From assembly GCA_937951455.1 (NCBI GenBank), contig CALFBU010000125.1, positions 1 to 19,935 on the forward strand: a DNA stretch of 19,935 nucleotides. Reading direction: 5' to 3'. Position numbers and translations under genes: made by a program. The notes beneath the pieces are model-generated. The model searched no databases, had not been told where the DNA came from, and was given only the letters and a program-made list of their open reading frames with translations. Each line of letters opens with the position of its first letter. Within the stretch, counting starts at the first letter, position 1. Source of the DNA: an uncultured Rhizobiaceae group bacterium (lineage in GTDB: Bacteria > Pseudomonadota > Alphaproteobacteria > Rhizobiales > Rhizobiaceae). Shown piece after piece: positions 1-17,494 of the stretch.

Positions 1-1
1 G

Positions 2-835
2 CTTTATCAGATCATCAACAAGACGGATCGCGAAATTGCTGCTGCGCGTGTTGAATCTGCCAAACAGGCACTTGCAGCCTCCGACTCACACCTTGAGCGT
101 TTGATAACCTTGCGCAAAAAAGGTCTGGTTGCTGAAAGCAAGGTTGATGAATTGCGTCGCCAGCAGGCCAATACCGTTGGGCGCCTGAAAGAAGCTGAAT
201 ATGATCTTGAGCGCGCAACAGCAATGGATTCCGTCTCGGTAAGACGTTACTTCAACCATAAAGAGTTTGTCTCTGACCTTGATATGCTGGCGCTTGAAGT
301 TGAAGAAGCCAATGCCAAGGTCATGGCTGCGAGCATGCAGGTTGAAAAACTTGAAGTAGAAAAAATCCGCATGATCATCAAGGCACCCTTCGATGGCCGT
401 ATCGTTTCTGTGAAGCAGCCTGGTAATATTATGGTGCTTCGTAACGAACAACTTTTCACCATTGAAAAGCATGAGCAGCCAACTGTGACGGCTTTCCTTG
501 ATCAAGAACAGATTTTGACAGTCGGCCTGCATGATGAGGCGAAAGTCTTTATTCCTGCACTCGATCGCCATATCACGGCAATCGTTTCTAAGATCGACCG
601 AAACTCGGCTTTCATAAACGACAAGGCATCTCATTACGTTTGGGATGACCAAAAAGGAAAATCGGCCACCGTTTCGCTCAAAATTGAATTAACTCAAGAA
701 GAGCGAAACTACATATATGCAGGTCTGCCTGCTGTGGTTGTTTTCCCTAAACGTTCAACGAGTGCGATTTATAATCAGCTTGGAAATACGGTTCTTAAAT
801 TAAAAGGTATCTTCCACGATGAAACTTCAATTTGA
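2..835 (+). CDS. alg44: Alg44-like membrane-fusion (HlyD-type) protein, 5'-truncated
   Basis: The reading frame is open from base 2, so the gene starts left of the window and only about 277 C-terminal residues are visible. They show a long charged alpha-helical hairpin (roughly the first 120 residues, e.g. KVDELRRQQANTVGRLKEAE), then a lipoyl/barrel-sandwich segment (IIKAPFDGRIVSVKQPGNIM) and a beta-barrel region ending GLPAVVVFPKRST, the usual HlyD/membrane-fusion layout. In Pseudomonas, Alg44 joins an N-terminal c-di-GMP-binding PilZ domain and one membrane helix to such a periplasmic domain, and works with Alg8 in alginate polymerisation and export. The PilZ part would lie outside the window, so that assignment rests on the overlap with the alg8-type gene downstream (17 bp). 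A plain HlyD adaptor is the alternative. An in-frame TTG at 101 is internal, not a start. Confidence 0.75.
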   Translation, partial: LYQIINKTDREIAAARVESAKQALAASDSHLERLITLRKKGLVAESKVDELRRQQANTVGRLKEAEYDLERATAMDSVSVRRYFNHKEFVSDLDMLALEVEEANAKVMAASMQVEKLEVEKIRMIIKAPFDGRIVSVKQPGNIMVLRNEQLFTIEKHEQPTVTAFLDQEQILTVGLHDEAKVFIPALDRHITAIVSKIDRNSAFINDKASHYVWDDQKGKSATVSLKIELTQEERNYIYAGLPAVVVFPKRSTSAIYNQLGNTVLKLKGIFHDETSI

Positions 836-2414
836 TACCTCGAAGCATGTAGACGACCCGACCCATTGGCCAAAAGGATTTGCGAAATGGACACCTGGTG
901 TATTGCTGGGAATCTTTATGTATTTGGGACTGTGTCTAATCGGATTATTGACCGTACCGAATACAATATTTGACAATAAGACATTGGTCATAACGTTTAC
1001 CATTGGCGGGCTTGGGGCCTGGCGATATGGGTGGTGGTTTACGCATGCAATTCGCGCAATCATTTATGGCCACATTGTCTATCCGAAGTTCAAGCGTGAA
1101 GGGCAGAAAATCTGGGAATCAGGTTGGCGTCCGCGTCATCTGCATTTTATGATGACGACCTACAAGGAACACCGTGAGATCACCGAAATGGTGGTGCGGT
1201 CAATCGTCAAGGAAATACATAATTCTGGTGTGCCTGGAACCATTTGGTTAGGCTCATCTGACCGATTTGATGAAGATATCATCTCCGATTTTCTCAAACG
1301 CGAAGCCATGGACGTGGATGTTACGCTTCGCATCATACGTCAGAACGTCTCTGGAAAACGCGCAGCCATTGGCCTGGTGCTTCGCGCCATGTGTCGCTTG
1401 CCTGTACTGGATGATGATTTGATAATCTTTATGGATGGTGATTTCGTTTTGAGCGAAGGGGCGATCGGCCGATGCATGCCGATGTTCAAATTGCACCCAG
1501 AATTACAGGCTGTGACGACAGACGAAGAAGTAATTTGTATTGGCCCGAGATGGATTGAACGCTGGCTGCAAATGCGGTTCTCACAGCGCCGTCTTGCCAT
1601 GCAGTCGCATGCCCTTTCCGGCCGAGTGTTAACCCTGACTGGCCGCATGTCTGTCTTCCGCGCCAAAAATCTCAAGCAGCTTGAATTCATTCGCCTTTTG
1701 GAGGCCGATCATCTTGAGCACTGGCTATGGGGCAAGTTTCGTTTCCTTTCAGGTGATGACAAAAGCACCTGGTTCTACATGCTCAAGCATGGTTCGCATA
1801 TGCTTTATATTCCTGACGCGCTTGGTTACACGATTGAGGTCATCGAAGGCTCGGGCATGGAGCGGATGGTGCAAAACTTCCGTCGCTGGTCCGGTAACAT
1901 GCTGCGCAATGGACAGCGAGCCATCATGCTGGGGCCACGTGCCATGCCGTTTTTCATCTGGTGGTGTCTGATCGACCAGCGTCTCTCCATGTGGACCATG
2001 TTGGTGAGTCCGGTTCTGGCCGTTTCTGCTGCCTTTCTGGTGGGCGTCGAATATTTGCTTTCTTATGTGATTTTCATCGCGATCAGCCGTCTGATGTTGT
2101 CGCTTGTTTTGTGCACATACTCACGCAAGGTACAGCTTTCTTACTCATGGATCCTTTACCTCAATCAGGTCATCAACGCTTCTGTTAAAGTCTACTGTAT
2201 ATTCAGACTGTCAAAGCAGCGTTGGTCAAACAGAGGCAACCAAAGTGCCGGTATGAATGGCGAAAGTTTCATAGAAACATTCAGAAACTGGATGGCTTCC
2301 CTATGCACTACGGTTGCAGTTGCGCTGCTCTTTCTATCGACGGTTCACTACACAAATCTGGTTGATATTCCAAGCTACATACAGCTGCGAGATGCGCTTC
2401 CCGTACTGAACTAA
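819..2414 (+). CDS. alg8: Alg8-like polymannuronate synthase (GT2 membrane glycosyltransferase)
   Basis: Processive GT2 synthase of 531 residues (Pseudomonas Alg8 is about 494) that would polymerise GDP-mannuronate across the inner membrane. Visible features are N-terminal membrane segments at about residues 26-46 and 55-75, a cytosolic GT-A domain with the DGD metal/nucleotide motif at 206-208, the Alg8-typical FLSGDDKSTWF segment (309-319), the QNFRRW motif (352-357; QxxRW class), and C-terminal membrane helices at about 377-435 and 493-510. SGDDKST plus QxxRW separates it from most cellulose and hyaluronan synthases. The ATG at 819 lies inside the end of the alg44-like gene (17-bp overlap) with an AAAGG about 12 bases upstream, so the two are probably translationally coupled. 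Alg8 activity in Pseudomonas needs c-di-GMP sensing by Alg44. No terminator follows the stop codon. Confidence 0.88.
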   Translation: MKLQFDTSKHVDDPTHWPKGFAKWTPGVLLGIFMYLGLCLIGLLTVPNTIFDNKTLVITFTIGGLGAWRYGWWFTHAIRAIIYGHIVYPKFKREGQKIWESGWRPRHLHFMMTTYKEHREITEMVVRSIVKEIHNSGVPGTIWLGSSDRFDEDIISDFLKREAMDVDVTLRIIRQNVSGKRAAIGLVLRAMCRLPVLDDDLIIFMDGDFVLSEGAIGRCMPMFKLHPELQAVTTDEEVICIGPRWIERWLQMRFSQRRLAMQSHALSGRVLTLTGRMSVFRAKNLKQLEFIRLLEADHLEHWLWGKFRFLSGDDKSTWFYMLKHGSHMLYIPDALGYTIEVIEGSGMERMVQNFRRWSGNMLRNGQRAIMLGPRAMPFFIWWCLIDQRLSMWTMLVSPVLAVSAAFLVGVEYLLSYVIFIAISRLMLSLVLCTYSRKVQLSYSWILYLNQVINASVKVYCIFRLSKQRWSNRGNQSAGMNGESFIETFRNWMASLCTTVAVALLFLSTVHYTNLVDIPSYIQLRDALPVLN

Positions 2415-2477: not shown

Positions 2478-2518
2478 TGAAAAAATTATAACGTATTGAA
2501 ATAATTGAAGAAATAAAT

Positions 2519-2534
2519 TGGCATTCATTTTGCA
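2519..2534 (+). promoter_or_regulatory. Sigma-54 (RpoN) type -24/-12 promoter of the O-acetylation operon
   Basis: TGGCATTCATTTTGCA matches the sigma-54 consensus TGGCACGRNNNTTGCW at both invariant dinucleotides with correct spacing (GG at 2520-2521, GC at 2532-2533). Transcription would begin near 2545, leaving a leader of about 18-20 bases that includes the GGAG ribosome site at 2554-2557 ahead of the ATG at 2564. The same kind of element recurs ahead of algD. Confidence 0.65.
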
Positions 2535-2563
2535 AATGATTCTGAGAAAGACTGGAGACTCAA

Positions 2564-3886
2564 ATGCCAAAGACTCATAAAACAAACAAAAGATTGTATT
2601 TGCCCATGATGAGCGCAGCTTTTGCGCTGGGTGCTGCACCTGCCTTATTGACGTTTTCCGTTGACCCCTATCAGATGTTCTCGTCAAAAGATCGACCAAC
2701 AGCAATCAATGATATTGCCGAAAAAGCACATTACCCGCTTTGGAAACTGGCAAAGTTTGTTCGCGGTTCACATGACACAATCATTTTGGGTGACAGCCGT
2801 GCACGTGCTTTGCGTGATAAATATTGGCACGAATTGAACATGCCAACAGCGCTTAACCTTGCCTATGGTGGCGGTACCATTCCAGAAATCTACAGCACCT
2901 TCAGTCTCATTAAATCTGACCCTGCAATTAAAAACCTGGTTGTGGGCGTACAACTGCGCAGTTTTGATGAAGACCACAAGGGGGGCATGAACAGGGTTCC
3001 TGAAGCCGTTGAACTGGTTCGCCACAAACTGGAATATTTGAAAAACTGGAATGTGTTTCAAACCACGTTAAAAGTGTTTGAAAAGGAAAATGAAGAGGCA
3101 ATTAGTCAATATGGTTCTTTGGTTTCCAAAGCCAATGCCGGCTCGTTAGGCAGGGAAGGTAAAACATCGCTATCCAAATTATTGGAGCCGGATGTCTGCT
3201 TTGGATGCGATATGCCCTCCGACCTCAAGCCTTTGGCCTATCAAAAAACGCGCACGAAGTTCTCTTATTCAGGACACCACAGATATAATAGTGCAGGTTG
3301 GGGTTATACCATTCCAGATTATAATTGGGATGATTTTCGTAGAGCCTATCAAATTGATACGCTCATTCCGAACCTTCCGAAAAAACATGCAACCCAGGTT
3401 AGAAAAAATGCCAAATCGGATTGGCGTGGCTTTGAGTTTTCTCAAAACTACTGGAAGCATTTTGAGGAAATGGGTGAGTGGGCGAAATCAGAAAATAGAA
3501 ATCTGATTTTTGTCATACCGCCTACCATTACTGACCTGCAAAATACGATCCAGGAAAATGGCTTGGGTAAAATCAATCACCAATTGCGCGTGAAACTGGC
3601 TGAACTGGGTACGGTTGTTGATCTGGATTATCCAACCGGTCTGACGCAAGATGCCAGTCGTTTTAACGATGCCTATCACTTCGATTCAAAAGTGGCGCGC
3701 CAAATTGTTGGTCAGGTAGTCCCTCTAATCACCAAAAACAAAGACGCACTCAAGATGGTTATCAAGCGTGAGAAAGACGTCAAATGTCACGTGAGCGATC
3801 AAGCACAACGAATTCAAGTTAGCCAGGCAATTGGTTTGTCCGAAGGGCAAAACTGCCGCGTATGGAGTATGCAAAATGACCGATGA
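2564..3886 (+). CDS. Periplasmic SGNH-hydrolase-like protein, putative polysaccharide O-acetyltransferase partner
   Basis: Protein of 440 residues with a basic N-terminus and one hydrophobic segment (about residues 11-32), read as a signal sequence or anchor that puts the rest in the periplasm. SGNH features are visible: GDSR at 76-79 with Ser78 as likely nucleophile, a Gly-rich AYGGGT turn (100-105), and DAYHFD at 369-374 supplying candidate catalytic Asp369 and His372. A CFGC pair (212, 215) and two C-terminal cysteines could form disulfides. In alginate O-acetylation, AlgJ and AlgX are SGNH-type periplasmic enzymes fed acetyl groups by AlgI; this gene shares an operon with algI, so the analogous role is inferred. 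It is not recognisably AlgX (no carbohydrate-binding module seen). DltD-like proteins are another comparison. GGAG six bases before the ATG supports the start. Confidence 0.72.
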   Translation: MPKTHKTNKRLYLPMMSAAFALGAAPALLTFSVDPYQMFSSKDRPTAINDIAEKAHYPLWKLAKFVRGSHDTIILGDSRARALRDKYWHELNMPTALNLAYGGGTIPEIYSTFSLIKSDPAIKNLVVGVQLRSFDEDHKGGMNRVPEAVELVRHKLEYLKNWNVFQTTLKVFEKENEEAISQYGSLVSKANAGSLGREGKTSLSKLLEPDVCFGCDMPSDLKPLAYQKTRTKFSYSGHHRYNSAGWGYTIPDYNWDDFRRAYQIDTLIPNLPKKHATQVRKNAKSDWRGFEFSQNYWKHFEEMGEWAKSENRNLIFVIPPTITDLQNTIQENGLGKINHQLRVKLAELGTVVDLDYPTGLTQDASRFNDAYHFDSKVARQIVGQVVPLITKNKDALKMVIKREKDVKCHVSDQAQRIQVSQAIGLSEGQNCRVWSMQNDR

Positions 3887-5084
3887 AAAGAAAACACAAT
3901 TTGTTTCGTTTGCAATTTTGGCATCGCTATCAACTGTGATTGTTGCAAGCGCATTGTCCTTGCACAAACCTGATATGCAATCAGCTTATGTGCCAGATCC
4001 AGTCACAAAAAAAGAGCTCTTGATGGCGCGCGGGTTTGTTAAAAACAAGGATTGGCAAAAGGCAGCAGAAATTTTGGAAAAGAATGCTGTTGGCGCTAAC
4101 GTGCAGGCTAAATATGAATATGCAATGCTGTATGCAAAAGGCTGGGGTGTGCCTCGCGACTTGGAAAAAGCGCGTAATCTTTTGTTGCAGGCAGTTCAGC
4201 GTCCTTTTGAAGATCGTGCAAAGGCGGCTTTCGAACTGGGCCGCGTATACAGAATGTCCAAAGGCGATGATTGCGCGCGCATTGCCTTTGAATGGTTCAC
4301 CAAGTCGGTGCAATGGGGATATATGAAGGCTCATAATGAGCTTGGAAAATCATATTCCCGAGGCATTGGTGTTAAGCAAAATATAGAGCTTGCTCTAAAA
4401 CATTATCGCTATGCTGCAGTTCATAATTCGTCTTCGGCGGTAATTCCCCTGATTGAATTATTGGCCAAAGGCAGCGCATCCATGCCTGCAAACCCTGAAA
4501 AAGCCGCAGCTATTTTAACGGAGTTTATGCCCAAGCTCGAAATGGCTGCAAAAGCAGGCGATGCGCAAGCTGCGAGATCTGTTGGCCGACTGCATTTAAA
4601 CGGATTGATACTTGAACCCAATAACGAAGAAGCAATTCGTTGGCTTTCCATGGCTGCGGGTCTCGGCGACGCGATCGCAATGCATGACATGGCGATGTTG
4701 CTTGTTGAAACGAAGAAAGAACAGGCCATCAAGGAAGACATTCTGGAACTGCTCAATGAGAGTGCAAGAAGAAATTATGCTGCAGCAATTACAACGCTTG
4801 GAAGGTTGCACCTTAAAAGGAAGTTCGGTTTGCCGGAAAGAAAATCCGTTGAATTTTTCAACAAGGGGATCGCAGCCGGGCACCCGGGTTCAATGGAAGA
4901 ACTGGGTCGCCTGTATCTTAAGGGTAAGCATGTTCAATACAATCTGGTCAAAGCACGCGAACTTGCGGAGCAGGGTACCTTGTTAAAACATACTGGCAGT
5001 AAAAAACTGCTGGATGAGATTAAAAAAGCGGAAGCAAAGAAAAACTTGGAAGCTTCCGTATCGATTACCGAAAGAGAGGGATAA
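3876..5084 (+). CDS. Sel1-like repeat (TPR-type) protein, AlgK-like
   Basis: Protein of 402 residues built mostly of Sel1-like helical repeats, with units such as AKYEYAMLYAKGWGVPRDLEKA, AHNELGKSYSRGIGVKQNIE, AARSVGRLHLNGLILEPNNE and SMEELGRLYLKGKHVQYNLV. The N-terminus has one hydrophobic stretch after a short charged segment (about residues 8-29), so it is probably exported or anchored in the inner membrane. AlgK of Pseudomonas is a Sel1/TPR periplasmic scaffold that helps localise the AlgE porin; operon position suggests the same job. Unlike AlgK, no lipobox cysteine is visible near the N-terminus. The ATG at 3876 is chosen because GGAG lies at 3864-3867 and the signal segment follows directly; an in-frame start at 3831 would add 15 residues of unrelated sequence. 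It overlaps the SGNH gene by 11 bp. Confidence 0.75.
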   Translation: MTDEKKTQFVSFAILASLSTVIVASALSLHKPDMQSAYVPDPVTKKELLMARGFVKNKDWQKAAEILEKNAVGANVQAKYEYAMLYAKGWGVPRDLEKARNLLLQAVQRPFEDRAKAAFELGRVYRMSKGDDCARIAFEWFTKSVQWGYMKAHNELGKSYSRGIGVKQNIELALKHYRYAAVHNSSSAVIPLIELLAKGSASMPANPEKAAAILTEFMPKLEMAAKAGDAQAARSVGRLHLNGLILEPNNEEAIRWLSMAAGLGDAIAMHDMAMLLVETKKEQAIKEDILELLNESARRNYAAAITTLGRLHLKRKFGLPERKSVEFFNKGIAAGHPGSMEELGRLYLKGKHVQYNLVKARELAEQGTLLKHTGSKKLLDEIKKAEAKKNLEASVSITEREG

Positions 5085-5088
5085 ACCC

Positions 5089-6594
5089 ATGGTTTTCAGT
5101 TCACTTGAGTTTATTTATCTTTTCTTGCCACCTGTTTTGGTTGGTTTTTTATGTCTGCGCGCATTGCGTATGGAAACCGCGATTATCTGGTGGCTCATCA
5201 TGGCTTCTCTGGTTTTCTACATGTGCTGGAGCCCAAAGCATCTGATCTTGCTACTCTTCTCGGTAGGGTTCAACTATTTGGTTCACCTAATCCTGAAGTG
5301 GAATAAATCGTTCACCGTTTTAACGCTAGGCATCACCGCAAATTTATTGATGCTGGGTGTTTTCAAATATGCAGATTTTTTCATCGGCAACTTCAACGCT
5401 GTCACTGGCGTGGAGGTCGCTGAACTCGGATTGATTTTGCCGCTTGCAATATCGTTTTATACATTCCAGCAGGTGTCGTTTTTGCGCGATACCTATCAGG
5501 ACAAGCTGGTCAATTGCGACTTCAAGAAATACGTTTTGTTCGTGACGTTCTTTCCGCAGTTGATTGCCGGGCCGATCGTTATGCAACGTGATACGATCCC
5601 ACAATTTACCATGAGCCATTTTAACAATCGCTATATTACAAATATCATGGCTGGTGCGACGCTCTTTTCAATCGGCCTTTTCAAGAAAATTGTCTTGGCA
5701 GATGGCATTGCTCCCATGGCCAATGCGGTTTTCACAATCGCTGATCAAGGCGGTAACGTACCGATGGAAGCCGCCTGGCTCGCCGCTATCGCATATACTT
5801 TTCAAATCTATTTCGATTTTTCAGGTTATTGCGACATGGCATTAGGTCTTGCACTAATGTTTGGCATTCGCCTGCCAATCAACTTTAACTCTCCCTATCG
5901 CTCCTCGAGCATCGTTGAGTTCTGGCGTCGTTGGCACATTACTCTATCCAGGTTTTTGAGAGACTACCTTTACATCCCGCTAGGTGGCAACAAATCCGGC
6001 TTGTTGGGAACACGAGGCAACCTTGCAATCACCATGTTATTGGGTGGGCTTTGGCACGGTGCTGGCTGGAATTTCATCATCTGGGGCGCGCTACATGGTG
6101 GCTATCTGATGATAAACCATGTGTGGAGTGGGTCTGTAGCGGGGCAGTCTGTCCGCACAAATATGAATTCATATCTTTATGCATTCATGGCATGGTCGGT
6201 AACGATGTTCGCTGTAATATTCGCTTGGGTCTTCTTTAGAGCCGAAACCTTTACGGGTGCTGCAATCATGCTGCAATCAATGCTCGGTATGTCAGAATAT
6301 ATTGGCATAAGAACAGCGCAAGAAATCATCCCTGACTTTGATCTTGCACCCTACATGCTGTTGGCTATGACGATGATTGTGGTCTTGTTGCCAAACAGTA
6401 TCGAGTTCACAAGCAAGTACAGACCTGTGCTCGACACCGCCAAGGAAATTGGAAAGCCGCTGTTTAGCGTCTTTCAGCTTCGCTGGTCTCCAAGACCGGC
6501 CTGGGCAGTTGCCTTTACTGCGATAGCGCTTGTGTCAGTCATACAGATATATCGTTTGAACGACCTGACTGAGTTCATCTATTTCAACTTCTAA
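5089..6594 (+). CDS. algI: AlgI-like MBOAT O-acyltransferase
   Basis: Polytopic inner-membrane protein of 501 residues (Pseudomonas AlgI about 520) that passes acetyl groups across the membrane for O-acetylation of the exopolysaccharide. MBOAT signatures are clear: FFPQLIAGPI (154-163), YFDFSGYCDMA (241-251), the NSPYRSSSIVEFWRRWHITL block (267-286), and GGLWHGAGWNFIIWGALHG (319-337) with the invariant His323 and second conserved His336. The ATG at 5089 follows the preceding stop by four bases with an AGAGAGGG ribosome site in front; the longer frame from 5014 overlaps the upstream gene and is unlikely. It is the last gene before the terminator at 6614. Paired with the SGNH gene two positions upstream, it should form the acetylation module. 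AlgI and DltB-type proteins share motifs, but the neighbours favour alginate. Confidence 0.9.
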   Translation: MVFSSLEFIYLFLPPVLVGFLCLRALRMETAIIWWLIMASLVFYMCWSPKHLILLLFSVGFNYLVHLILKWNKSFTVLTLGITANLLMLGVFKYADFFIGNFNAVTGVEVAELGLILPLAISFYTFQQVSFLRDTYQDKLVNCDFKKYVLFVTFFPQLIAGPIVMQRDTIPQFTMSHFNNRYITNIMAGATLFSIGLFKKIVLADGIAPMANAVFTIADQGGNVPMEAAWLAAIAYTFQIYFDFSGYCDMALGLALMFGIRLPINFNSPYRSSSIVEFWRRWHITLSRFLRDYLYIPLGGNKSGLLGTRGNLAITMLLGGLWHGAGWNFIIWGALHGGYLMINHVWSGSVAGQSVRTNMNSYLYAFMAWSVTMFAVIFAWVFFRAETFTGAAIMLQSMLGMSEYIGIRTAQEIIPDFDLAPYMLLAMTMIVVLLPNSIEFTSKYRPVLDTAKEIGKPLFSVFQLRWSPRPAWAVAFTAIALVSVIQIYRLNDLTEFIYFNF

Positions 6595-6613
6595 CAGCTG
6601 ACAAAACAGACTT

Positions 6614-6645
6614 AAAATAGCGGGCATCTGACCCGCTATTTTTTT
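6614..6645 (+). terminator. Rho-independent terminator after algI
   Basis: Perfect 11-bp stem AAAATAGCGGG (6614-6624) and CCCGCTATTTT (6632-6642) around a 7-base loop, continuing in a T-run to 6645. It lies 20 bp after the algI stop and separates this unit from the algD promoter. Confidence 0.9.
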
Positions 6646-6660
6646 GTTCAATATTAGACT

Positions 6661-6697
6661 TTGCAAAACGCAAAAATAATCTTTTCATAATGCAAAA
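6661..6697 (+). promoter_or_regulatory. Cluster of GCAAA repeats, putative upstream activator sites (copy B)
   Basis: GCAAA begins at 6663, 6670 and 6692. The 7-bp spacing of the first pair equals that at 2445/2452, and the third copy lies 22 bp on (20 bp in copy A). The last repeat is 69 bp from the GG of the -24 element against 48 bp in copy A; the difference of 21 bp is two helical turns, so the same face would be kept. The role is inferred. Confidence 0.45.
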
Positions 6698-6759
6698 AAT
6701 ATGAAGAAATTTAACGATTAAAAACAGACAAGTAGTTGAATTAATTGAATAAAAATAAC

Positions 6760-6775
6760 TGGCACGAGAATTGAA
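6760..6775 (+). promoter_or_regulatory. Sigma-54-like promoter of algD (degenerate -12)
   Basis: TGGCACGAGAATTGAA has a perfect -24 element (TGGCACG) but reads TTGAA instead of TTGCA at -12, so one of the two nearly invariant positions is off. The 28 bases up to and including TGGCA (6736-6764) match 2496-2523 ahead of the O-acetylation operon at about 23 of 28 positions with one gap, which argues for a real, related promoter. The leader to the algD ATG would be about 30 bases with AGAGGAA at 6803-6809. Confidence 0.5.
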
Positions 6776-6815: not shown

Positions 6816-8219
6816 ATGAATGCACTAGCAAAGAAGTATGAATTTGAGCACTCAACTGTCTTACCAGAAGTTGACTTTAACAAGCCAGCGATTTCAGTTG
6901 TAGGACTTGGCTATGTGGGCGCTGTATCAACGGCGTGTTTGTCACAACTAGGCCACCGCGTAGTCGGCGTCGATGTTGATACCATCAAGGTTCAACAAAT
7001 CGAGGAAGGCTCTTCACCGATCCATGAAAAAAACCTAGGTGAATATCTTCAGGATGGTGTGGCAAATAATCTAATATCAGCGACGACTGATCTTGTGGGT
7101 GCCGTAGTTGATACTTCAGTTACATTTCTTTCAGTAGGTACGCCAACCAGCAAGGATGGTGGTTGCGACTACCGTTATATTGTTTCAGCAGCTCGTGCGA
7201 TAGGCGAAGGTCTGCGCCAGAAAAAATCATATCATGTCGTTGTCATGCGTTGTTCAATCCCGCCAGGTGCAACACTTGATGTGATGGTTCCGGAAATCGA
7301 AAAAGCATCTGGCCTTAAGATGGGTGATGACTTCGGCATTGCTTTTAATCCGGAGTTTCTGAGAGAAGGTACTGCCATTGAAGACTTCTATGCACCACCA
7401 AAAACAGTGGTCGGTGCAAATGATGAACGCGCGGCAAAAATTGTGGCAGACATCTACAAGCCGGTCGATGAAAACGTTCTGATGACAACCATCGATGTGG
7501 CTGAAATGGTCAAATATGTCGATAATGTTTGGCATGCAACCAAGGTAAGCTTTGCAAACGAAATCGGTCGCATCTGCAAGCCATTGGAAATCGATAGCCA
7601 CAAGGTGATGGATATCTTTGTACAAGATACGAAGCTAAATCTCTCACCATATTATTTGAAACCGGGCTTCGCCTTTGGGGGATCGTGTCTACCCAAAGAG
7701 GTACGTGCGGTTGCACATTTGGCAAACAAGCTTGATGTTGAAACGCCGCTCATTAGCAACTTGTCCGCATCCAACTCACTTCAGATTAATGCAGCGACTG
7801 AGATGGTACGCAATTCCGGCCATAAGCGAATTGGTTTTCTGGGACTTGCTTTCAAGGCAGGTACGGATGACCTGCGTGAAAGCCCGATCCTTGAAGTGAT
7901 TAACGCACTTGTTCAGGAAGACTATGAAGTAACGACCTATGATCCAGCAATTGACCCGAACACTCGTATCGAAAATCAATTCACATATGTTGAACATGTT
8001 TGCCCACATCTGAAACCGATGGTTGACGCGCTACCGGATATGATGCGCGCAAATGGCAATCAAGTCATTGAGCAGAGCGACGTCATCGTCGTCACTCAAA
8101 ACACGCCCGAAATTCAAGAACTTGTCGCATCCGCATTTGGTCGCGTCGAAGTCATTGATCTTGTGCGTGTCTTTAAAGATCAACCGATGTTTCAGGGTTA
8201 CCAAGGCATCGGATGGTAA
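6816..8219 (+). CDS. algD: GDP-mannose 6-dehydrogenase (AlgD)
   Basis: Oxidises GDP-mannose to GDP-mannuronate with two NAD+, the committed step of alginate synthesis, in the cytosol. The 467-residue protein has the Rossmann motif GLGYVG (30-35), the NPEFLREGTAIEDF block (178-191), EMVKYVDNVWHATKVSFANEIG around 230-251, and the active-site GFAFGGSCLPKE segment with Cys291. FKAGTDDLRESP in the C-terminal third and the GIGW ending closely follow Pseudomonas AlgD (which ends GICW). These features fit GDP-mannose better than UDP-glucose dehydrogenase, as do the alginate neighbours. It is about 30 residues longer than Pseudomonas AlgD, mostly an N-terminal extension before the Rossmann fold; the ATG has a good AGAGGAA site and no internal ATG precedes the fold. 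It heads a two-gene unit with the RTX gene. Confidence 0.93.
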   Translation: MNALAKKYEFEHSTVLPEVDFNKPAISVVGLGYVGAVSTACLSQLGHRVVGVDVDTIKVQQIEEGSSPIHEKNLGEYLQDGVANNLISATTDLVGAVVDTSVTFLSVGTPTSKDGGCDYRYIVSAARAIGEGLRQKKSYHVVVMRCSIPPGATLDVMVPEIEKASGLKMGDDFGIAFNPEFLREGTAIEDFYAPPKTVVGANDERAAKIVADIYKPVDENVLMTTIDVAEMVKYVDNVWHATKVSFANEIGRICKPLEIDSHKVMDIFVQDTKLNLSPYYLKPGFAFGGSCLPKEVRAVAHLANKLDVETPLISNLSASNSLQINAATEMVRNSGHKRIGFLGLAFKAGTDDLRESPILEVINALVQEDYEVTTYDPAIDPNTRIENQFTYVEHVCPHLKPMVDALPDMMRANGNQVIEQSDVIVVTQNTPEIQELVASAFGRVEVIDLVRVFKDQPMFQGYQGIGW

Positions 8220-8272: not shown

Positions 8273-10036
8273 ATGACTGTAGATACAGACATGAATATCT
8301 CCCTCATTCAGGGCACGAATGGAGAAGATAATATTACAGGAACAGGTCGTTCAGAAGTAATTTCTGGCAATCACGGCGATGATACTATTCGCGCACTAAG
8401 TGGCGACGATGACGTTTACGGCGGTTCTGGTAATGACACACTTTATGGCCAGGGTGGTAACGATACCATCTACGGAAACGGTAAACCGGCCTATGTCGAT
8501 TTGCAAAATCTGGTCATTCAAAACGCAACAACCGCAACCGTTACGTTCGTCGATGAAGGTGCCGGGTATCGAAACGCGCTCGGCGTTTATGAAATTGGCC
8601 CAAATGGCGAAATTACAAATGTCCAAATCCTGTTCGCCAATGCGTCGAAACAAGGTAGCGGCGGCGATTTGATTAGTAATCAATCATTTGTACAGTTTGA
8701 TGTCAGTGCTGGTGCGCAATTGGGTTTCTTTGTCGTCTCCAATGGCTACGGCAAGGGTGCTGATAACCGTGAAGCGCTTGAAGGTCTTAATGGCACTTAT
8801 GAAATGCGTGCGCTGGATGGTGGTCCTGCGGTAGTGGGTGCGCCGATGGAATTATGGTATATCGACAGTACAACAGGTGAAGAATATCACGTAAAAAGTC
8901 AGTTTGGTCATGATATCTTCCACTCAACAGGTTCCGTACCAACGGATCTCGCAACAAATCCTGATAACTACCTGCATGTTGTTGGCCGTGCCAATGCTGT
9001 AGGGGGTGATCTTCTGCTTGGTTTTGAAGACATCAGAGGTGGTGGCGATAACGACTATGATGATACCGTCATCAACGTCGATATTGGTCAGGATAATATT
9101 GTGGCACTTCTGCCAACACCGTCTGGCAATGGCAGCAACTTGCCGGATGATGACATTCTGTACGGTGGCGATGGCAATGATGTCATGTTCGGCATATCCG
9201 GTGATGACCGTCTTGAAGGGGGGCGCGGTAATGATGAATTGTCCGGCAACTCCGGCAATGATGTGCTCTTCGGTAATGATGGTGCTGATATCTTGAACGG
9301 AAACTCTGGCAACGATGTCCTGAATGGTGGCGCAGGGATCGATGAACTCTTCGGCAATTCAGGCGATGATACGCTGTCAGGTGATGGTGGCAATGACACA
9401 CTTTCCGGTGGCAGTGGTAACGATCAACTGTTTGGCGGCTCGGGTGCAGATGATATTTCTGGTGGCTCGGGAGAAGACGTTCTACATGGTGGCAGTGGCA
9501 ATGATGCCATGAACGGCAATAGTGGCAATGACACGCTTTACGGCGAAAGTGGCGCAGATACCCTGAAAGGCCATTCCGGTAACGATTCCCTGTTTGGCGG
9601 CGACGGTGCTGATAAAATTGTCGGCGGCGGTGGGGATGATATCCTCTCTGGTGGCGCTCACAATGACAAAGTATACGGCGGATCAGGCGCTGACGTAATG
9701 TCGGGTGGTGATGGTAATGATTATCTGACCGGCAGCAGTGGTAATGACATTATCAATGGCGGCGCTGGCAATGATAAAATCAGAGGCGGCAGCGGAGAAG
9801 ATACTTATGTCTATGACCTTGCTGACGGCCATTTGGGAAGTGACAGGCTCTATGATTTTGAAGTCATCGATACCATTTCAATCGAAAACAGCGACTTCAG
9901 TTCCTATGAAGATTTGTCAGATCACATAGTGCAATCGGGCGATGATGTGACGATCAATCTTGAAGATCAAGGTATGATTACAATTCATGACATTAATCTT
10001 GCCACGCTAAGCGAAGACAATTTCGTATTTGCGTAA
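8273..10036 (+). CDS. Secreted RTX calcium-binding protein with a DUF4114 domain
   Basis: Acidic, Gly/Asp/Asn-rich protein of 587 residues without a Sec signal. Order: six degenerate RTX nonapeptides (about residues 14-70), a DUF4114-type domain (about 72-275, with AGYRNALGVYEIGPNGE, SQFGHDIFHS and LLLGFEDIRGGGDNDYDD), a second RTX array of 24 consecutive nonapeptides of the GGxGxDxLx kind (about 292-507), and a C-terminal tail (508-587) that ends in hydrophobic/acidic residues (DNFVFA), as in type I secretion substrates. RTX repeats fold into a calcium-bound beta-roll after export. It lies 53 bp after algD with no terminator between, so it is probably cotranscribed; an AGAGG at 8260-8264 precedes the ATG. 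It recalls the R-modules of Azotobacter AlgE epimerases, but no catalytic epimerase or lyase domain is present. A matrix protein or polymer-binding role is inferred. No type I exporter is in the window. Confidence 0.85.
   Translation: MTVDTDMNISLIQGTNGEDNITGTGRSEVISGNHGDDTIRALSGDDDVYGGSGNDTLYGQGGNDTIYGNGKPAYVDLQNLVIQNATTATVTFVDEGAGYRNALGVYEIGPNGEITNVQILFANASKQGSGGDLISNQSFVQFDVSAGAQLGFFVVSNGYGKGADNREALEGLNGTYEMRALDGGPAVVGAPMELWYIDSTTGEEYHVKSQFGHDIFHSTGSVPTDLATNPDNYLHVVGRANAVGGDLLLGFEDIRGGGDNDYDDTVINVDIGQDNIVALLPTPSGNGSNLPDDDILYGGDGNDVMFGISGDDRLEGGRGNDELSGNSGNDVLFGNDGADILNGNSGNDVLNGGAGIDELFGNSGDDTLSGDGGNDTLSGGSGNDQLFGGSGADDISGGSGEDVLHGGSGNDAMNGNSGNDTLYGESGADTLKGHSGNDSLFGGDGADKIVGGGGDDILSGGAHNDKVYGGSGADVMSGGDGNDYLTGSSGNDIINGGAGNDKIRGGSGEDTYVYDLADGHLGSDRLYDFEVIDTISIENSDFSSYEDLSDHIVQSGDDVTINLEDQGMITIHDINLATLSEDNFVFA
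9146..9793 (+). repeat. RTX nonapeptide array (24 repeats of about 27 bp)
   Basis: In-frame tandem coding repeat, each unit a variant of G-G/N-x-G-x-D-x-L/I-x. DNA copies are divergent, so this is a protein-level repeat. Regular GND/GAD/GDD calcium-ligand triplets recur every nine residues without interruption. Confidence 0.92.
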
Positions 10037-10197: not shown

Positions 10198-12534
10198 TTG
10201 ACTGGGAAGCAAGTGCTTAGAAAATTCGTAACGCACGTTTATGGCAATCCATTCATGTATTGTTTGCTCCTGTTGGCCCTTTTAAAATCTGGAACAATCC
10301 AAACCGATGCAACGCCTTACGGGGATGGGCGACGTATCATGGTTTGGCTAGCCTATTTACAAGAATCTGCCAACGGGTTTGCACATTGGTTGCCATTTAG
10401 AAACGGTGGTATGCCGCTGTTTGCCGATCCGGAACAATTTTGGGCGTTAATGCCTTTTGTAAATGCTTCAAGTCCAAACGCAAATTTGCAGCTTAATATT
10501 CTACTCTACATATACTGCATTTTACCATTTTTCCCCGCATGGTTCGTGGCCAAACGAATAGGCATTGCACCTGTATGGGCAGGACTGGCAGCTCTATTTG
10601 TTTCATTCAATGGATACATGATCATAACGGAGCAAAGTGCGAGATTTGCAGCTTTTATAAATCTCACAACACTATTGGCAGTTTTTGCTATTTTGCTCAG
10701 GCCTCAAAAAGGCTTGCGTGATTTTACCGAAATTACCATTCTGGTAGGCGTTTGCCTGAGCGTGGCCTTTCAATACGCCATTGTTCATATTCTGTTGATC
10801 TACTCGGTTATGTTATTTAGCCGACGCTCGAGTAACACCACAACATCACGTCACTTTTTCAGAGCAAGTTTGATTACGGCTGTCATAGGCGTCGTTTCCA
10901 TCATGCTTGCAATGATTTTAGTCCTGCCCGTATTCGGTCACCTGCTGGATATTCGTACTCAACAAGGTCAGTTTTTTTATCTGCCTAATTTGAAAAACGG
11001 GCTGGAAAGTTTTCTTGGGCTGGTTCTGCCGTTTACATCAAAAGGTGATCCTGTTTTCACATCCCTGCTGCTTATCCCCGCGATCGTGATCGCTTGGAGC
11101 TTTGGCATTCCAGAGAAAATGAAGAAGTTGGCGATCAAATTATCATTGCCTATCGCATTTTGCTTCTTATTTCTTTTGATGGTTTTGCCTGTTGCAGGGC
11201 CGCCGCTTGCGACCATCTATGAAAACATCCCGATTATTTCGACGATAAGACAATTGGGTTACGCTCTGGGTGTCTTATCAATGTTTGTCCCGTTTTTTGC
11301 TTTTGGCATATTTGCATTTGTAAAAGACAGAAAGACAACTGCGCTGGGGAAAGCTGGTCGCGTCCTATGCTGTTCGTATTTTTTACTGAGCGCAATTTCA
11401 GCCCTCGCTTTTGGCTTGGGAAAACAAAACCTGACTTCAGATATCGCGGTCATCGCGGGCAGTATTTTGCTCCTGATCATGGCGTTATATTTGTTAATGC
11501 CGCGTCTTTTCAAATACGATGTTTTGAAAAATTTCCATACCTTTGGTTCATTGGGCTTCGTTCTTGCTTTCATCTCCATACTTTTTCTTTTGCCAAGCGC
11601 ATTTTATGAGCGCCATCCCGATCGCCCCAAGTTAAAACTGCACGTAACAAACGAACGCCAATTTTCAGAATTCAAAAAAATTATTTCTGAAGACCCAGCA
11701 CAATATTCCAAAGTTCTTACCAGTGCTTCAGGCAATCAACTGGGTTTCTTATACGCTTCCACGCGCACCATCGGTGGGTTCAGTACTTACATGCCTGAGA
11801 GCTTTTCTTATGTGATGCGTTTGCTTAGCCCCAAGATTGATTGGAAAACACAAAGACCCCATTGGGTTAAACGGGTACCCTGTAAAGACTATGATGCAAC
11901 AGCGCTTGAAATGATGAATGTGAATTATCTGATTTGCGTCAAAAATAGGGTTGCTACAAATTTGCCGAAGGGATTTGAAATTGTAGCAAGCCAAAATCGA
12001 TATGCTTTGCTCAAACGCAGGGATGCAAGCGCACAATCGTTGCGTGTTTATTGCCGATACCGTGTTGCACAACAAACAAATCCGGACCTGCTGCGTGATG
12101 ATATTCTCAATGCTTATTCAAAAAGACAATTGCTTATCCCTGAGGATTTTGAAGAAACGAAGCAAGATGCAAATTGCCCCAATGATGATTTTGCTGAAGC
12201 CGATGTTGTCAAAAAAACCGACAAGCCAGATGAAATGGTTCTTGAGGTTTCAAGCAAACAAAGCGGCACGCTGGTTGTTCCAGATAACTATAACGCTGGA
12301 TGGCGCGCAACGGTTAATGGTTCACTGCAAACGGTACTCCCTGCATTCTTCGCATTTCGAGGTGTTCGAGTGGAGGCAGGAAACAACATCGTCAAATTGG
12401 AATATCGGGACCGATATTTTGAGACAGGTGCGCTTGTCTCAGGGGTGACATTGGCGCTGCTATGTTTTATCTGGATTATGTCTTTTGTTTTCAGTTTTAA
12501 AAGGCGCAAAGAGAACCACGTTTCCAATATCTAA
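10198..12534 (+). CDS. YfhO-like GT-C membrane glycosyltransferase
   Basis: Large polytopic protein of up to 778 residues: about ten to eleven hydrophobic helices between residues 20 and 470, a soluble, probably periplasmic segment (about 475-735), and a last helix (about 742-765) with a basic tail. The first extracytoplasmic loop is acidic (TDATPYGDGRR, then FADPEQF), as in GT-C enzymes that use polyprenyl-phosphate sugars. The segment DNYNAGWRATVNG, then FRGVRVEAGNNIVKLEYRD, is the YfhO-family hallmark near the C-terminus. YfhO proteins glycosylate lipoteichoic acid or lipids in Gram-positives; here the acceptor is unknown. The frame is closed upstream at 10186, and the first start is TTG at 10198, with GTG at 10213 and ATG at 10255 as alternatives; none has a good ribosome site, so the start is uncertain. 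With the GtrA-like and GtrB-like genes downstream it could be the transferase of a three-component system. Confidence 0.75.
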   Translation: MTGKQVLRKFVTHVYGNPFMYCLLLLALLKSGTIQTDATPYGDGRRIMVWLAYLQESANGFAHWLPFRNGGMPLFADPEQFWALMPFVNASSPNANLQLNILLYIYCILPFFPAWFVAKRIGIAPVWAGLAALFVSFNGYMIITEQSARFAAFINLTTLLAVFAILLRPQKGLRDFTEITILVGVCLSVAFQYAIVHILLIYSVMLFSRRSSNTTTSRHFFRASLITAVIGVVSIMLAMILVLPVFGHLLDIRTQQGQFFYLPNLKNGLESFLGLVLPFTSKGDPVFTSLLLIPAIVIAWSFGIPEKMKKLAIKLSLPIAFCFLFLLMVLPVAGPPLATIYENIPIISTIRQLGYALGVLSMFVPFFAFGIFAFVKDRKTTALGKAGRVLCCSYFLLSAISALAFGLGKQNLTSDIAVIAGSILLLIMALYLLMPRLFKYDVLKNFHTFGSLGFVLAFISILFLLPSAFYERHPDRPKLKLHVTNERQFSEFKKIISEDPAQYSKVLTSASGNQLGFLYASTRTIGGFSTYMPESFSYVMRLLSPKIDWKTQRPHWVKRVPCKDYDATALEMMNVNYLICVKNRVATNLPKGFEIVASQNRYALLKRRDASAQSLRVYCRYRVAQQTNPDLLRDDILNAYSKRQLLIPEDFEETKQDANCPNDDFAEADVVKKTDKPDEMVLEVSSKQSGTLVVPDNYNAGWRATVNGSLQTVLPAFFAFRGVRVEAGNNIVKLEYRDRYFETGALVSGVTLALLCFIWIMSFVFSFKRRKENHVSNI

Positions 12535-12562
12535 TTTTCATCCGTAACAAGAATGGACCGAC

Positions 12563-12904
12563 ATGACAGGATATATAATTCTTGGCGGACTGAGAAACAT
12601 TTTCAGCCTTGGTGTTTTGACCTATTTGACACACATAGGCCTTCCAGTTTCCTTTGCTCTATTGATCGTGCTGTCAATGGATTTTGTGCTCTACTCAATA
12701 CAGGTCAGATATTTTGTGGGAACGGTTAACTTGCTCACCGTGGCGAAGGTTTTTGTGTTTCTCTATTTTGCAAACCGTTTTTTGCTCTGGGGGCTGTATG
12801 ATAAAATGACGCTTCCGATCTACATCGCTCAGGCAATCTCAGTGGTCATATTAATCATTGGCGGATACTTCTATTTAAGATCAAAACGCCAACTTCCCTT
12901 GTAG
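12563..12904 (+). CDS. GtrA-like small membrane protein (putative lipid-linked sugar flippase)
   Basis: Small protein of 113 residues with four predicted membrane helices (about residues 4-24, 28-46, 60-80, 84-104) and a basic tail (LRSKRQLPL). Size, helix count and the ILGGLRNIFSLGVLTYL start resemble GtrA/DPMS-flippase-like proteins, which are thought to flip polyprenyl-phosphate-linked sugars to the periplasm. It sits between a GT-C enzyme and, further down, a GtrB/ArnC-type synthase, the partners expected in Gtr systems. It follows the GT-C gene by 28 bp. The match is by overall pattern and not by a diagnostic motif, so a generic four-helix membrane protein is possible. A weak TGGA lies five bases before the ATG. 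Confidence 0.6.
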   Translation: MTGYIILGGLRNIFSLGVLTYLTHIGLPVSFALLIVLSMDFVLYSIQVRYFVGTVNLLTVAKVFVFLYFANRFLLWGLYDKMTLPIYIAQAISVVILIIGGYFYLRSKRQLPL

Positions 12905-12920
12905 ACGAGAAAAATCACTT

Positions 12921-13805
12921 ATGGAAAAACTTGAAACAAGACTTGAGGCATTTATTGCAAATTTTGATGTTGAGAAATTATGCAAGGATTGCGCTCAGCC
13001 TCTTGGCATAAGTGAGCTTGATACGAGAGAACTTTTAAACACATATCTGAATGAAGCGAAGAGCAATATTCATCTCATCACGCCATACCTGAGAAAAGAT
13101 ATCAGAATTCTGGAAGTGGGTAGCGGCATCGGAATTTTGACCGCTTTTTTAAAAAGCGAGGGCTACAATATCTTGGGAATTGAGCCAGGTGCGCAGGGTG
13201 GTTTCAGCTTTATGACTTCCATGCAAGATGCGGTTCTGCGCCAAGTCGCCCCGCAACTCAAACCTGAAATTCTCACCATTGGCGCAAGCGAACTTGATGA
13301 AAATGTGCATGGTACATTTGATCTGATTTTCTCAATACATGTGATGGAACACATTTTTCCGCTTGATAGCGCAGTTAAGGCAATGGCAGGTGTCTTGTCT
13401 GATGGTGGTATTATGCGCCATCTTTGCCCCAATTATAATTTTCCGTTTGAGCCGCATCTGGGAATTCCACTTGTGCCATTTTTTCCAAAAGTAACCCGTT
13501 ATATTTTACCCAAGAAAATCAAAGCCAATCAATCTATTTGGGATGGCGTAAATTTCGTGACGTCATCAAGGATAAAAAACCTTGCCTCAAAAAATGGTTT
13601 GAAAAGCGAGTTTGAGCGAGGTGTTATGGCGAGGTTTTTCATGCGTCTGCAAAGTGATACGACATTCGCAAACCGGCATCAGGGTTTGATAGGACATTTG
13701 GGAAAAATGCGTTTTATCGGAAAGCTGATTGGAGTGATTTTCAAATTAATTCCACCGGCTCTAGCGACGCCCATGATCATGACTTTGACACACGATAAAA
13801 AGTAA
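12921..13805 (+). CDS. Class I SAM-dependent methyltransferase
   Basis: Soluble protein of 294 residues with the SAM-binding motif I ILEVGSGIG (63-71), an acidic loop IEPG (87-90), and the motif FDLIFSIHVMEHIFPLD (133-149) typical of Methyltransf_11 enzymes. The later region CPNYNFPFEPHLGIP (169-183) is common in methyltransferases of glycan and lipid clusters. The N-terminal 60 residues are helical and charged. Substrate is unknown; its place between the GtrA-like gene and a second methyltransferase suggests a sugar, a polyprenyl-linked sugar or a polymer end. A GAGAAA stretch lies about ten bases before the ATG. Spacing of 16 bp from the gene before implies one transcript. Confidence 0.82.
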   Translation: MEKLETRLEAFIANFDVEKLCKDCAQPLGISELDTRELLNTYLNEAKSNIHLITPYLRKDIRILEVGSGIGILTAFLKSEGYNILGIEPGAQGGFSFMTSMQDAVLRQVAPQLKPEILTIGASELDENVHGTFDLIFSIHVMEHIFPLDSAVKAMAGVLSDGGIMRHLCPNYNFPFEPHLGIPLVPFFPKVTRYILPKKIKANQSIWDGVNFVTSSRIKNLASKNGLKSEFERGVMARFFMRLQSDTTFANRHQGLIGHLGKMRFIGKLIGVIFKLIPPALATPMIMTLTHDKK

Positions 13806-13849
13806 TCCGCACTGGAACGAAAACAACGAAACTGGAAAGTAGCGGCAAG

Positions 13850-14470
13850 ATGGAAAAAACAACGGGCGCGTATAGGCTAACGCAGGTCTCTGCCATATAT
13901 GATTTTTATCAAAAGGCACTTGGTTCGCATCGTGCCAGAAACACAATCGTATCAAATCATATTCGCCCAAAAGAAAATGACTTCGTATTAGACCTTGGCT
14001 GTGGCTCGGCAGAAGTGCTTCCCTTTTTGGGAGACGTAAACTACGTGGGCATTGATCGTAATCAGGGGCATATTGATAACGCCAAGTCGCAATTTGCAGA
14101 TCAGGGAATATTTCATTGTGGTGACTTTTCGGATGCCAGGAATTTTTCCAAAGAGGGCTATGACCTGATACTGTGCCTGGGCCTTTTGCATCATCTCGGT
14201 GACAAGGAAGTGCAGGATCTCGCTAAACTTGCCAAAAGTCTTTTATTGCCTGATGGGCGTCTGATTGCGGTCGACCCGGCCTTTGTGGAAAATCAAAATC
14301 CAATCGCCAGGAAACTGGCGCAGTGGGACTCTGGACAAAATGTACGCATGCCCGAGCAATATTGCAGTTTGCTTTCTAACAGCTTTTCGAATGTCAGTTT
14401 CAAGGTCTATAACAATCTGCTTCGGGTGCCTTATACCCATTGCATAACGACTGCTCAAAACCAGGAATAA
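13850..14470 (+). CDS. Class I SAM-dependent methyltransferase
   Basis: Protein of 206 residues with motif I VLDLGCGSAEVLPFL (46-60), an acidic YVGIDRN (65-71) that should bind the SAM ribose, CGDFSDA (90-96), and the motif YDLILCLGLLHHLGDKE (104-120), the usual post-motif order. It is distinct from the preceding methyltransferase (shorter, different C-terminus), so this is not a recent tandem duplication. The C-terminal part around NLLRVPYTHCI shows no further known domain. Probably cytosolic; substrate likely a nucleotide- or lipid-linked sugar by context. It starts 44 bp after the previous gene with only a weak GGAAAG upstream, so start choice is fair. Confidence 0.8.
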   Translation: MEKTTGAYRLTQVSAIYDFYQKALGSHRARNTIVSNHIRPKENDFVLDLGCGSAEVLPFLGDVNYVGIDRNQGHIDNAKSQFADQGIFHCGDFSDARNFSKEGYDLILCLGLLHHLGDKEVQDLAKLAKSLLLPDGRLIAVDPAFVENQNPIARKLAQWDSGQNVRMPEQYCSLLSNSFSNVSFKVYNNLLRVPYTHCITTAQNQE

Positions 14471-14540
14471 TTGACCTTGGCAAACTCACGCTATAACAGT
14501 GAAGCCAAGCAAAATCCAAAGTCTAGTGAGTTCTGTGTAA

Positions 14541-15485: not shown

Positions 15486-15509
15486 CAACTTTGAAAGACG
15501 CTTCAAAAC

Positions 15510-16658: not shown

Positions 16659-16706
16659 TGAACCAATCTGGCGTGAGCCATGCACTGAAATAATTCGGAT
16701 TTTCAC

Positions 16707-17432: not shown

Positions 17433-17494
17433 GCGTTTAACTCAAATCAAAAAATTATGGTACTGCCAGCTTATATAAAGAAAAAATTTTGTAG

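Follow-up and report, generated by a model that had tools for sequence, protein, structure and literature searches.

We have analyzed a 19,935 nucleotide stretch of DNA (the window), which is contig C125 of the 2.32 Mb, 71.7% complete assembly GCA_937951455.1 of an uncultured Rhizobiaceae group bacterium and which carries alginate-type polysaccharide genes. Two sites in the window, one ahead of a putative acetylation operon (SGNH-like protein, Sel1-repeat protein and MBOAT O-acyltransferase; here the SGNH operon) and one ahead of the algD operon, are very probably real sigma-54 promoters of a single locus-specific regulon, which would be driven by a LuxO/SypG-type activator paired with a hybrid histidine kinase. 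An initial annotation had proposed that two related sigma-54-type promoters place these operons under one control, and at sequence level this reading is supported.

Probable sigma-54 promoters and LuxO-type boxes

Both sites precede the first gene of an operon, as had been reported, and have the form GG-N10-G(C/A) (Table 1); it should be noted that TGGCA and TTGCA in the first site are separated by six bases and not by seven as initially described. A third copy, for which the initial annotation had pointed to the region ahead of alg44/alg8, is present on contig C18, as is the gene for a nearby enhancer-binding regulator of the kind that it had suggested looking for, here a LuxO-type activator. 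Contig C18 ends in alg44 and its positions 12845-13200 overlap window positions 1-356 at 96.6% identity, and it therefore adjoins the window on the left. A fourth site lies on the other strand of C18, ahead of the divergent GMP and phosphomannomutase (PMM) genes. RpoN itself is encoded on contig C171 (PF04552, E 6e-68).

Enhancer boxes upstream of both the SGNH and algD promoters are a feature that the initial annotation had missed. The LuxO enhancer motif is quoted as TTGCAWWWTGCAA in an excerpt of a published study (PMC10162802). Boxes were defined as TTGCA-N3-TGCAA palindromes, the pattern searched being TTGCANNNTGCAA and mismatches being counted against it. The whole window contains six boxes with at most one mismatch, five of which are upstream of SGNH (three) and algD (two), and these counts were reached by 0/1000 shuffles of either intergenic region. 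With the boxes between GMP and alg44, which by coordinates are centred 90, 118 and 139 bp from the GG of the GMP-side site TTGGCCTAAGCTTTGCA, the SGNH, algD and alg44 promoters together have one perfect and seven one-mismatch boxes (0/1000 shuffles each). In the joined 32.8 kb there are 16 GG-N10-G sites with a score of at least 10 on a 13-point sigma-54 consensus; the five that have boxes within 140 bp upstream are the four promoters and one site within the box array.

Sequence conservation was analyzed across GTDB genomes scanned with an Alg8 alignment, using the best 80 of 117 loci. The nearest loci among the genomes scanned were those of uncultured “Rhizobiaceae group” bacteria (alg8 91-92% identical). 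A sigma-54 site was counted where the score reached at least 10 within the expected 90 bp stretch, and upstream counts comprise plus-strand genes with sufficient upstream DNA, with algD rows of at least 50% identity. Such sites were found, own genome included, in 46/72 alg44, 41/50 SGNH and 16/28 algD regions (shuffles 3.1, 2.8, and 1.4%), and in 15 of the 19 loci with a divergent GMP-side layout (score at least 10; shuffles 3.3%). Both promoters of the window thus recur in relatives, and the sites are kept at similar positions in many genera. Among the regions bearing a sigma-54 site, boxes with at most one mismatch were present at 23/46 alg44, 20/41 SGNH and 7/16 algD regions (shuffles 2.5-2.9%), and boxes with at most two mismatches at 36/46, 30/41 and 11/16, respectively (shuffles 16-20%). 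When all these upstream regions were pooled, 73 of the 79 boxes were found 60-116 bp from the GG. Counting of dyads without any prior motif placed TTG-CAA and GCA-n3-TGC among the top enriched words. Box distances also cluster with respect to helical phase, the best of eight periods tried being near 11 bp; the rows are related, and for this reason the p-value of the phasing was not used.

Genome-wide scans showed little specificity. If one mismatch is allowed, TTGCANNNTGCAA has 176 matches, against 48 for the reversed pattern, which includes ACGT and for that reason is a poor control, and TTGGCA-N6-TTGC has 577 over both strands (control 174). For the compound pattern TGCAA-N55-85-TGGCA-N6-TTG there were 20 matches, four of them in three of the alginate promoters, compared with two for its reversed control. 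When eight compound matches outside the cluster were re-scanned, four were found again, none of them with a box of at most two mismatches, and four were not re-found. Given this weak specificity, no regulon member is claimed outside the cluster. Autoregulation at the kinase gene was also considered and rejected: in 11 loci the region before this gene was free of boxes with at most one mismatch, and its best sigma-54 scores were 7-9, the sole score of 10 being in L034 at 18 bp before the start.

The predicted activator and its co-occurrence with the promoters

The predicted activator is composed of a REC domain, an AAA+ domain with an intact GAFTGA motif and a Fis-type helix-turn-helix (HTH). 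LuxO was its best match in the PDB (5ep0, E 1e-135; the next protein, of the NtrC family, 1e-93) and the best of 109 NCBIfam models (582 bits; next 381). The hybrid kinase encoded by the preceding gene reaches 352 bits with the LuxQ model, far under its cut-off of 1200. Activator and kinase genes adjoin the polysaccharide genes, an adjacency also seen in relatives; in Roseibium-type genomes (L058, L060, L061, L063, and L069) the activator gene is, by coordinates, beside the kinase gene just outside the fetched locus. Roseibium album CECT 5095 likewise has the alg44 site, with the kinase and activator genes just past its locus, and the 10 kb fetched there showed no algD.

The genome has seven matches to PF00158, four of them strong, and it could be argued that the sigma-54 promoters are real but answer to another enhancer-binding protein, i.e., one encoded on contig C78 (the C78 protein), NtrC, or one that the incomplete assembly does not include. 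An assembly of 71.7% completeness could indeed lack such a gene, and the C78 protein also combines GAFTGA with an HTH. Eleven HTH residues are reported as critical in V. cholerae LuxO in an excerpt of PMC11407668; by eye, seven of the 11 are identical in the cluster activator and likewise seven of 11 in the C78 protein. The rule that these residues identify the family was therefore dropped, as the C78 protein fits it about equally. What separates the two proteins is the segment corresponding to LuxO residues 421-428, which reads SPSTIYRK in LuxO and in the cluster activator but GRSTLYRK in the C78 protein. Furthermore, Hyphomicrobiaceae that encode C78-like proteins have alg44 regions with sigma-54 scores below 10, NtrC and NtrX of this genome are without GAFTGA, the boxes match the LuxO motif, and a LuxO-type gene sits within the locus itself. 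Control by a different enhancer-binding protein is accordingly considered improbable. The NtrC-like protein, encoded on contig C249 (L024; 1730-3178), may not act on sigma-54, given its lack of GAFTGA.

The association of activator and promoters was addressed by assigning presence or absence of the activator by hand, with an ortholog cut of about 45% identity or more. A sigma-54 site was found at alg44 in 42/48 loci with an activator ortholog and in 3/23 without (one unknown), at SGNH in 39/44 with and 2/6 without, and at algD in 16/17 with and 0/10 without (one unknown). Loci L045, L046, L073, and L083 were counted as “without” although they encode LuxO-type-HTH proteins at 31-34% identity. 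Locus L095 was left as unknown; in the tree display, though not in the contrast test, it is placed among the rows without activator. The alg8 tree has 71 rows, L084 being absent. Within the same genus an activator ortholog was found in 3/12 genomes and alg8 in 4/12. In the fourth genome with alg8, G064 (94% complete and by coordinates the genome of L077), nothing matches the activator above 41%, and the 400 bp ahead of alg44 contain no GG-N10-G(C/A) site scoring at least 9 and no box with at most two mismatches. The gammaproteobacterial alg44-alg8 loci of Colwellia (L045, L046, and L073) encode a LuxO/SypG-type-HTH protein 18-20 kb in, and two of these three have a box with at most one mismatch before alg44.

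Several observations weigh against a single regulon under this activator. Once corrected for ancestry the co-occurrence of activator and sigma-54 sites comes down to about five independent contrasts, of which 3.8 agree and 0.1 disagree (median p 0.125), and only three remain after removal of seven gammaproteobacteria, L044 and L095; with about five contrasts left the co-occurrence is suggestive only. A box with at most one mismatch is absent from about half of the upstream regions that bear a sigma-54 site, L039, L040, and L043 have activator and promoters yet hardly any recognisable box, and only 12 of 28 gaps between successive boxes measure 21-22 bp. At 582 bits the activator does not reach the LuxO equivalog cut-off of 800, and is therefore LuxO-like and not LuxO. 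Nine activator orthologs checked have GSFTGA or GAFSGA instead of GAFTGA. LuxO-type proteins are also present in relatives without alg8, and the family is thus not alginate-specific. Finally, the join between C18 and the window is made over 356 bp at 96.6% identity in a 71.7% complete assembly.

The altered GAFTGA motifs were seen in L030, L031, L059, L062, L142, L152, L153, L179, and L181; in the first four of these the altered activator occurs alongside intact alg44 sigma-54 sites.

Intergenic regions and the algD -12 element

The flanks of the two promoters of the window (2496-2523 and 6736-6764), initially described as agreeing at about 23 of 28 positions with one gap, have 24 identical positions with one gap. 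This likeness extends over about 110 bp of the SGNH and algD intergenic regions, with a local alignment score of 32 (shuffles 15.4, standard deviation 2.7; reached by 1/2000), and without the promoter cores the score is 28 against a shuffle mean of 14.9 (0/2000). The alg44 region of C18 also resembles that of SGNH (score 32, 0/500 shuffles) and, weakly, that of algD (21, reached by 16/500).

Part of the matching flanks is accounted for by IHF-like sites, which have the consensus WATCAANNNNTTR. Each of the two window linkers has one such site, and these overlap the flanks without filling them. Sites with at least 8/9 consensus positions were found in 12/16 algD, 26/41 SGNH and 15/46 alg44 linkers (shuffles 20, 20, and 9%), often at 24-26 or 34-38 bp before the GG; the alg44 linker of our own genome reaches only 7. 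IHF commonly aids looping at sigma-54 promoters, according to an excerpt of PMC7057263. The earlier proposal that the conserved flanks reflect shared regulation is therefore supported in its conclusion, while the control itself would reside mainly in the LuxO-type boxes further upstream, the flanks being in part IHF-like sites and not promoter.

The extent of the likeness, beyond the motifs alone, and its presence in the alg44 region as well could also point to duplication of an intergenic region with no bearing on present regulation. In relatives, however, the linkers and spacers vary while the -24/-12 elements and the boxes hold similar distances, so that selection would have preserved even a duplication of ancient date, and we regard duplication alone as a highly improbable explanation. 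A further alternative, that the genes are read from sigma-70 promoters of the usual kind or by transcription running on from alg44-alg8 while the sigma-54-like sites are idle, is similarly very unlikely. In its favour, the stretch between alg8 and the SGNH gene showed no terminator-like site, and each of the SGNH and algD upstream stretches scanned has one sigma-70-like match. Against it, the number of such matches is that expected from shuffles (0.7 and 1.0), algD is preceded by a strong terminator-like hairpin, and in many genera the sigma-54 sites have been kept at similar positions.

The weak -12 element that had been noted for the algD copy is confirmed as GA and is, in addition, conserved. 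For this comparison sites were scored without the -12 C, which avoids bias in the count. The C was missing in all 16 sites found in the 28 algD regions (12 A and 4 T), was present in 40/41 alg44 sites, and was present in 27/38 SGNH sites, the 11 exceptions all being in a Roseibium-like group. The Fisher value of 3e-13 is for rows which share ancestry and are hence not independent. As the spacers differ between species, the shared algD -12 is not mere identity of recent copies, and from this pattern we infer that the algD promoter is tuned rather than decaying. Given that the C is missing in every algD site found, algD probably has the promoter that opens least readily, which would place a built-in gate on the committed step.

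Proposed mechanism, known systems and gene layout

In the proposed mechanism the hybrid histidine kinase would transfer phosphate to the product of the gene that follows it, the LuxO/SypG-type response regulator, which in its activated form would bind the TTGCA-N3-TGCAA boxes. These boxes often come in pairs with a spacing of 21-22 bp, about two turns of the helix, and most lie 60-116 bp upstream of the -24 element; bending of the linker by IHF may assist. Through its GAFTGA loop the regulator would drive RNA polymerase-sigma-54 open at four promoters, and four units would respond, i.e., the divergent GMP/PMM and alg44-alg8 (sharing one enhancer), SGNH-Sel1-MBOAT and algD-RTX, with algD probably the hardest to open. 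The elements, their conservation, the gene neighbours and the protein families are read directly from the DNA, whereas phosphotransfer, DNA binding, activation, IHF action, the gate, and with them transcription and signalling, are predictions.

The layout of a LuxO-like activator with sigma-54 is known from Vibrio biofilm genes and would act here on alginate-like slime genes. The HPt-bearing hybrid kinase SypF of V. fischeri is thought to phosphorylate SypG (PMC10162802; PMC8941931), and ScvE is a sigma-54-dependent regulator with loci in 28 genera, two of which are in the Alphaproteobacteria (PMC8941931). The Syp/Scv/Rbd loci of Vibrio (SypG, ScvE) share with the present locus a sigma-54 polysaccharide locus with its own LuxO/SypG-type response regulator. 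They differ from it in that the genes here are alginate-type (alg8, alg44, algD, GMP, and MBOAT) and in Alphaproteobacteria, that the boxes fit the LuxO motif (which was the motif scored), that the alg44 enhancer is common to a divergent GMP/PMM promoter, and that algD has a conserved off-consensus -12. The locus would thus work like a syp/scv switch, and is not classed as a syp locus: the genes identified are alginate-type, and no search with syp proteins was made. With LuxO/qrr of the Vibrionaceae it has in common an activator closest to LuxO and repeated boxes fitting TTGCAWWWTGCAA upstream of a sigma-54 site; here the targets are biosynthetic operons and not small RNAs, and the activator differs from LuxO in its NCBIfam score and in four of the 11 critical HTH residues.

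The parallel drawn initially with sigma-54 control of algD in Pseudomonas stands only in a looser form. There is some RpoN involvement, but in P. aeruginosa PAO579 algD is driven by AlgU, and the action of RpoN is reported as upstream and indirect, via algW and pilA (PMC3684759). Both systems have an alginate operon starting at algD; in the present locus the genes are arranged in four units and algD itself has the sigma-54 site. Older comparative work tied sigma-54 to exopolysaccharides generally (PMC3162934, in excerpt). Among the matches listed in the Creative Commons-licensed PMC literature there was none for sigma-54 or LuxO-type control of alginate in Alphaproteobacteria.

We put forward only tentatively that a LuxO/SypG-type sigma-54 switch is common, and possibly ancestral, in many Alphaproteobacteria with the locus and in some gammaproteobacteria (Colwellia), with a bidirectional enhancer and a deliberately weak algD promoter, the GDP-mannose dehydrogenase firing last. 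If so, the quorum-sensing role of LuxO in Vibrio would represent a single branch of a wider switch for surface polysaccharides. The single-regulon reading itself would link the LuxO/SypG family to polysaccharide control far outside Vibrio, and it names a candidate regulator, its binding sites and a signalling kinase, all open to experiment, for the alginate-type slime of these Alphaproteobacteria. Through the conserved off-consensus -12 of algD, the tuning of sigma-54 promoter strength inside one regulon could be studied in a natural setting.

Table 1. Features of the locus in the window (contig C125) and on the adjoining contig C18; distances of boxes and IHF-like sites are measured to the GG of the sigma-54 site.
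Feature	Position	Strand	Remarks
Hybrid kinase	C18 5139-8126	+	PAS-PAS-HisKA-HATPase-REC-HPt
LuxO-like activator	C18 8140-9519	+	Gene after hybrid kinase
PMM	C18 9557-10300	-	
GMP	C18 10312-11772	-	
Fourth sigma-54 site, TTGGCCTAAGCTTTGCA		other strand, divergent	Before GMP/PMM; 53 bp before GMP start
Three LuxO-type boxes between GMP and alg44	C18 11907, 11935, 11956		11907 perfect
Third sigma-54 site, TTGGCATGTGTTTTGCT	C18 12021-12037	+	Before alg44
alg44 start	C18 from 12063	+	PilZ domain
alg44, 3' part	2-835	+	N-terminal PilZ end on contig C18
alg8-like glycosyltransferase	819-2414	+	GT2 family; 2/120 relatives listed carry source name Alg8
LuxO-type box, TTGCCATTTGCAA	2422-2434		1 mismatch; centre 92 bp from GG
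LuxO-type box, TCGCAAATTGCAA	2443-2455		1 mismatch; centre 71 bp from GG; 21 bp from box 2422-2434
LuxO-type box, TTGCAAAATGAAA	2470-2482		1 mismatch; centre 44 bp from GG
IHF-like site, TAACGTATTGAAA	2489-2501		Minus strand; 8/9 consensus positions; centre 25 bp before GG
Sigma-54 promoter of SGNH/Sel1/MBOAT operon (site 1), TTGGCATTCATTTTGCA	2518-2534	+	GG-N10-GC
SGNH-like protein	2564-3886	+	First gene of putative acetylation operon
Sel1-repeat protein	3876-5084	+	
AlgI-like MBOAT O-acyltransferase	5089-6594	+	
Terminator-like hairpin	6614-6642	+	Closes acetylation operon, separating algI from algD
LuxO-type box, TTGCAAAACGCAA	6661-6673		1 mismatch; centre 94 bp from GG
LuxO-type box, TTTCATAATGCAA	6683-6695		1 mismatch; centre 72 bp from GG; 22 bp from box 6661-6673
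IHF-like site, CAAGTAGTTGAAT	6729-6741		Minus strand; 8/9 consensus positions; centre 26 bp before GG
Sigma-54 promoter of algD operon (site 2), CTGGCACGAGAATTGAA	6759-6775	+	GG-N10-GA; conserved non-consensus -12
algD, GDP-mannose 6-dehydrogenase	6816-8219	+	Top PDB match 1mfz, E 8e-118
RTX calcium-binding/DUF4114 protein	8273-10036	+	algD operon, next gene after algD

The 96.6% identity of the overlap between C18 and the window points to strain mixture in the assembly. The protein called SGNH-like in the initial annotation had no Pfam model above cut-off and no PDB match. The PMM encoded next to GMP belongs to the eukaryotic PF03332 (HAD) type, with a relative in 13 of the 80 loci. The window also carries a second surface-glycan gene run (10198-19785), which encodes a YfhO-type membrane protein, methyltransferases, an NAD-dependent epimerase/dehydratase, a DegT aminotransferase and a glycosyltransferase-methyltransferase fusion, and in which no LuxO-type box with at most one mismatch was found. 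An RTX match lies within 2.5 kb after algD in 20 of the 42 loci having an algD match, and as a guess the RTX/DUF4114 protein may be a secreted calcium-binding partner of the polymer.

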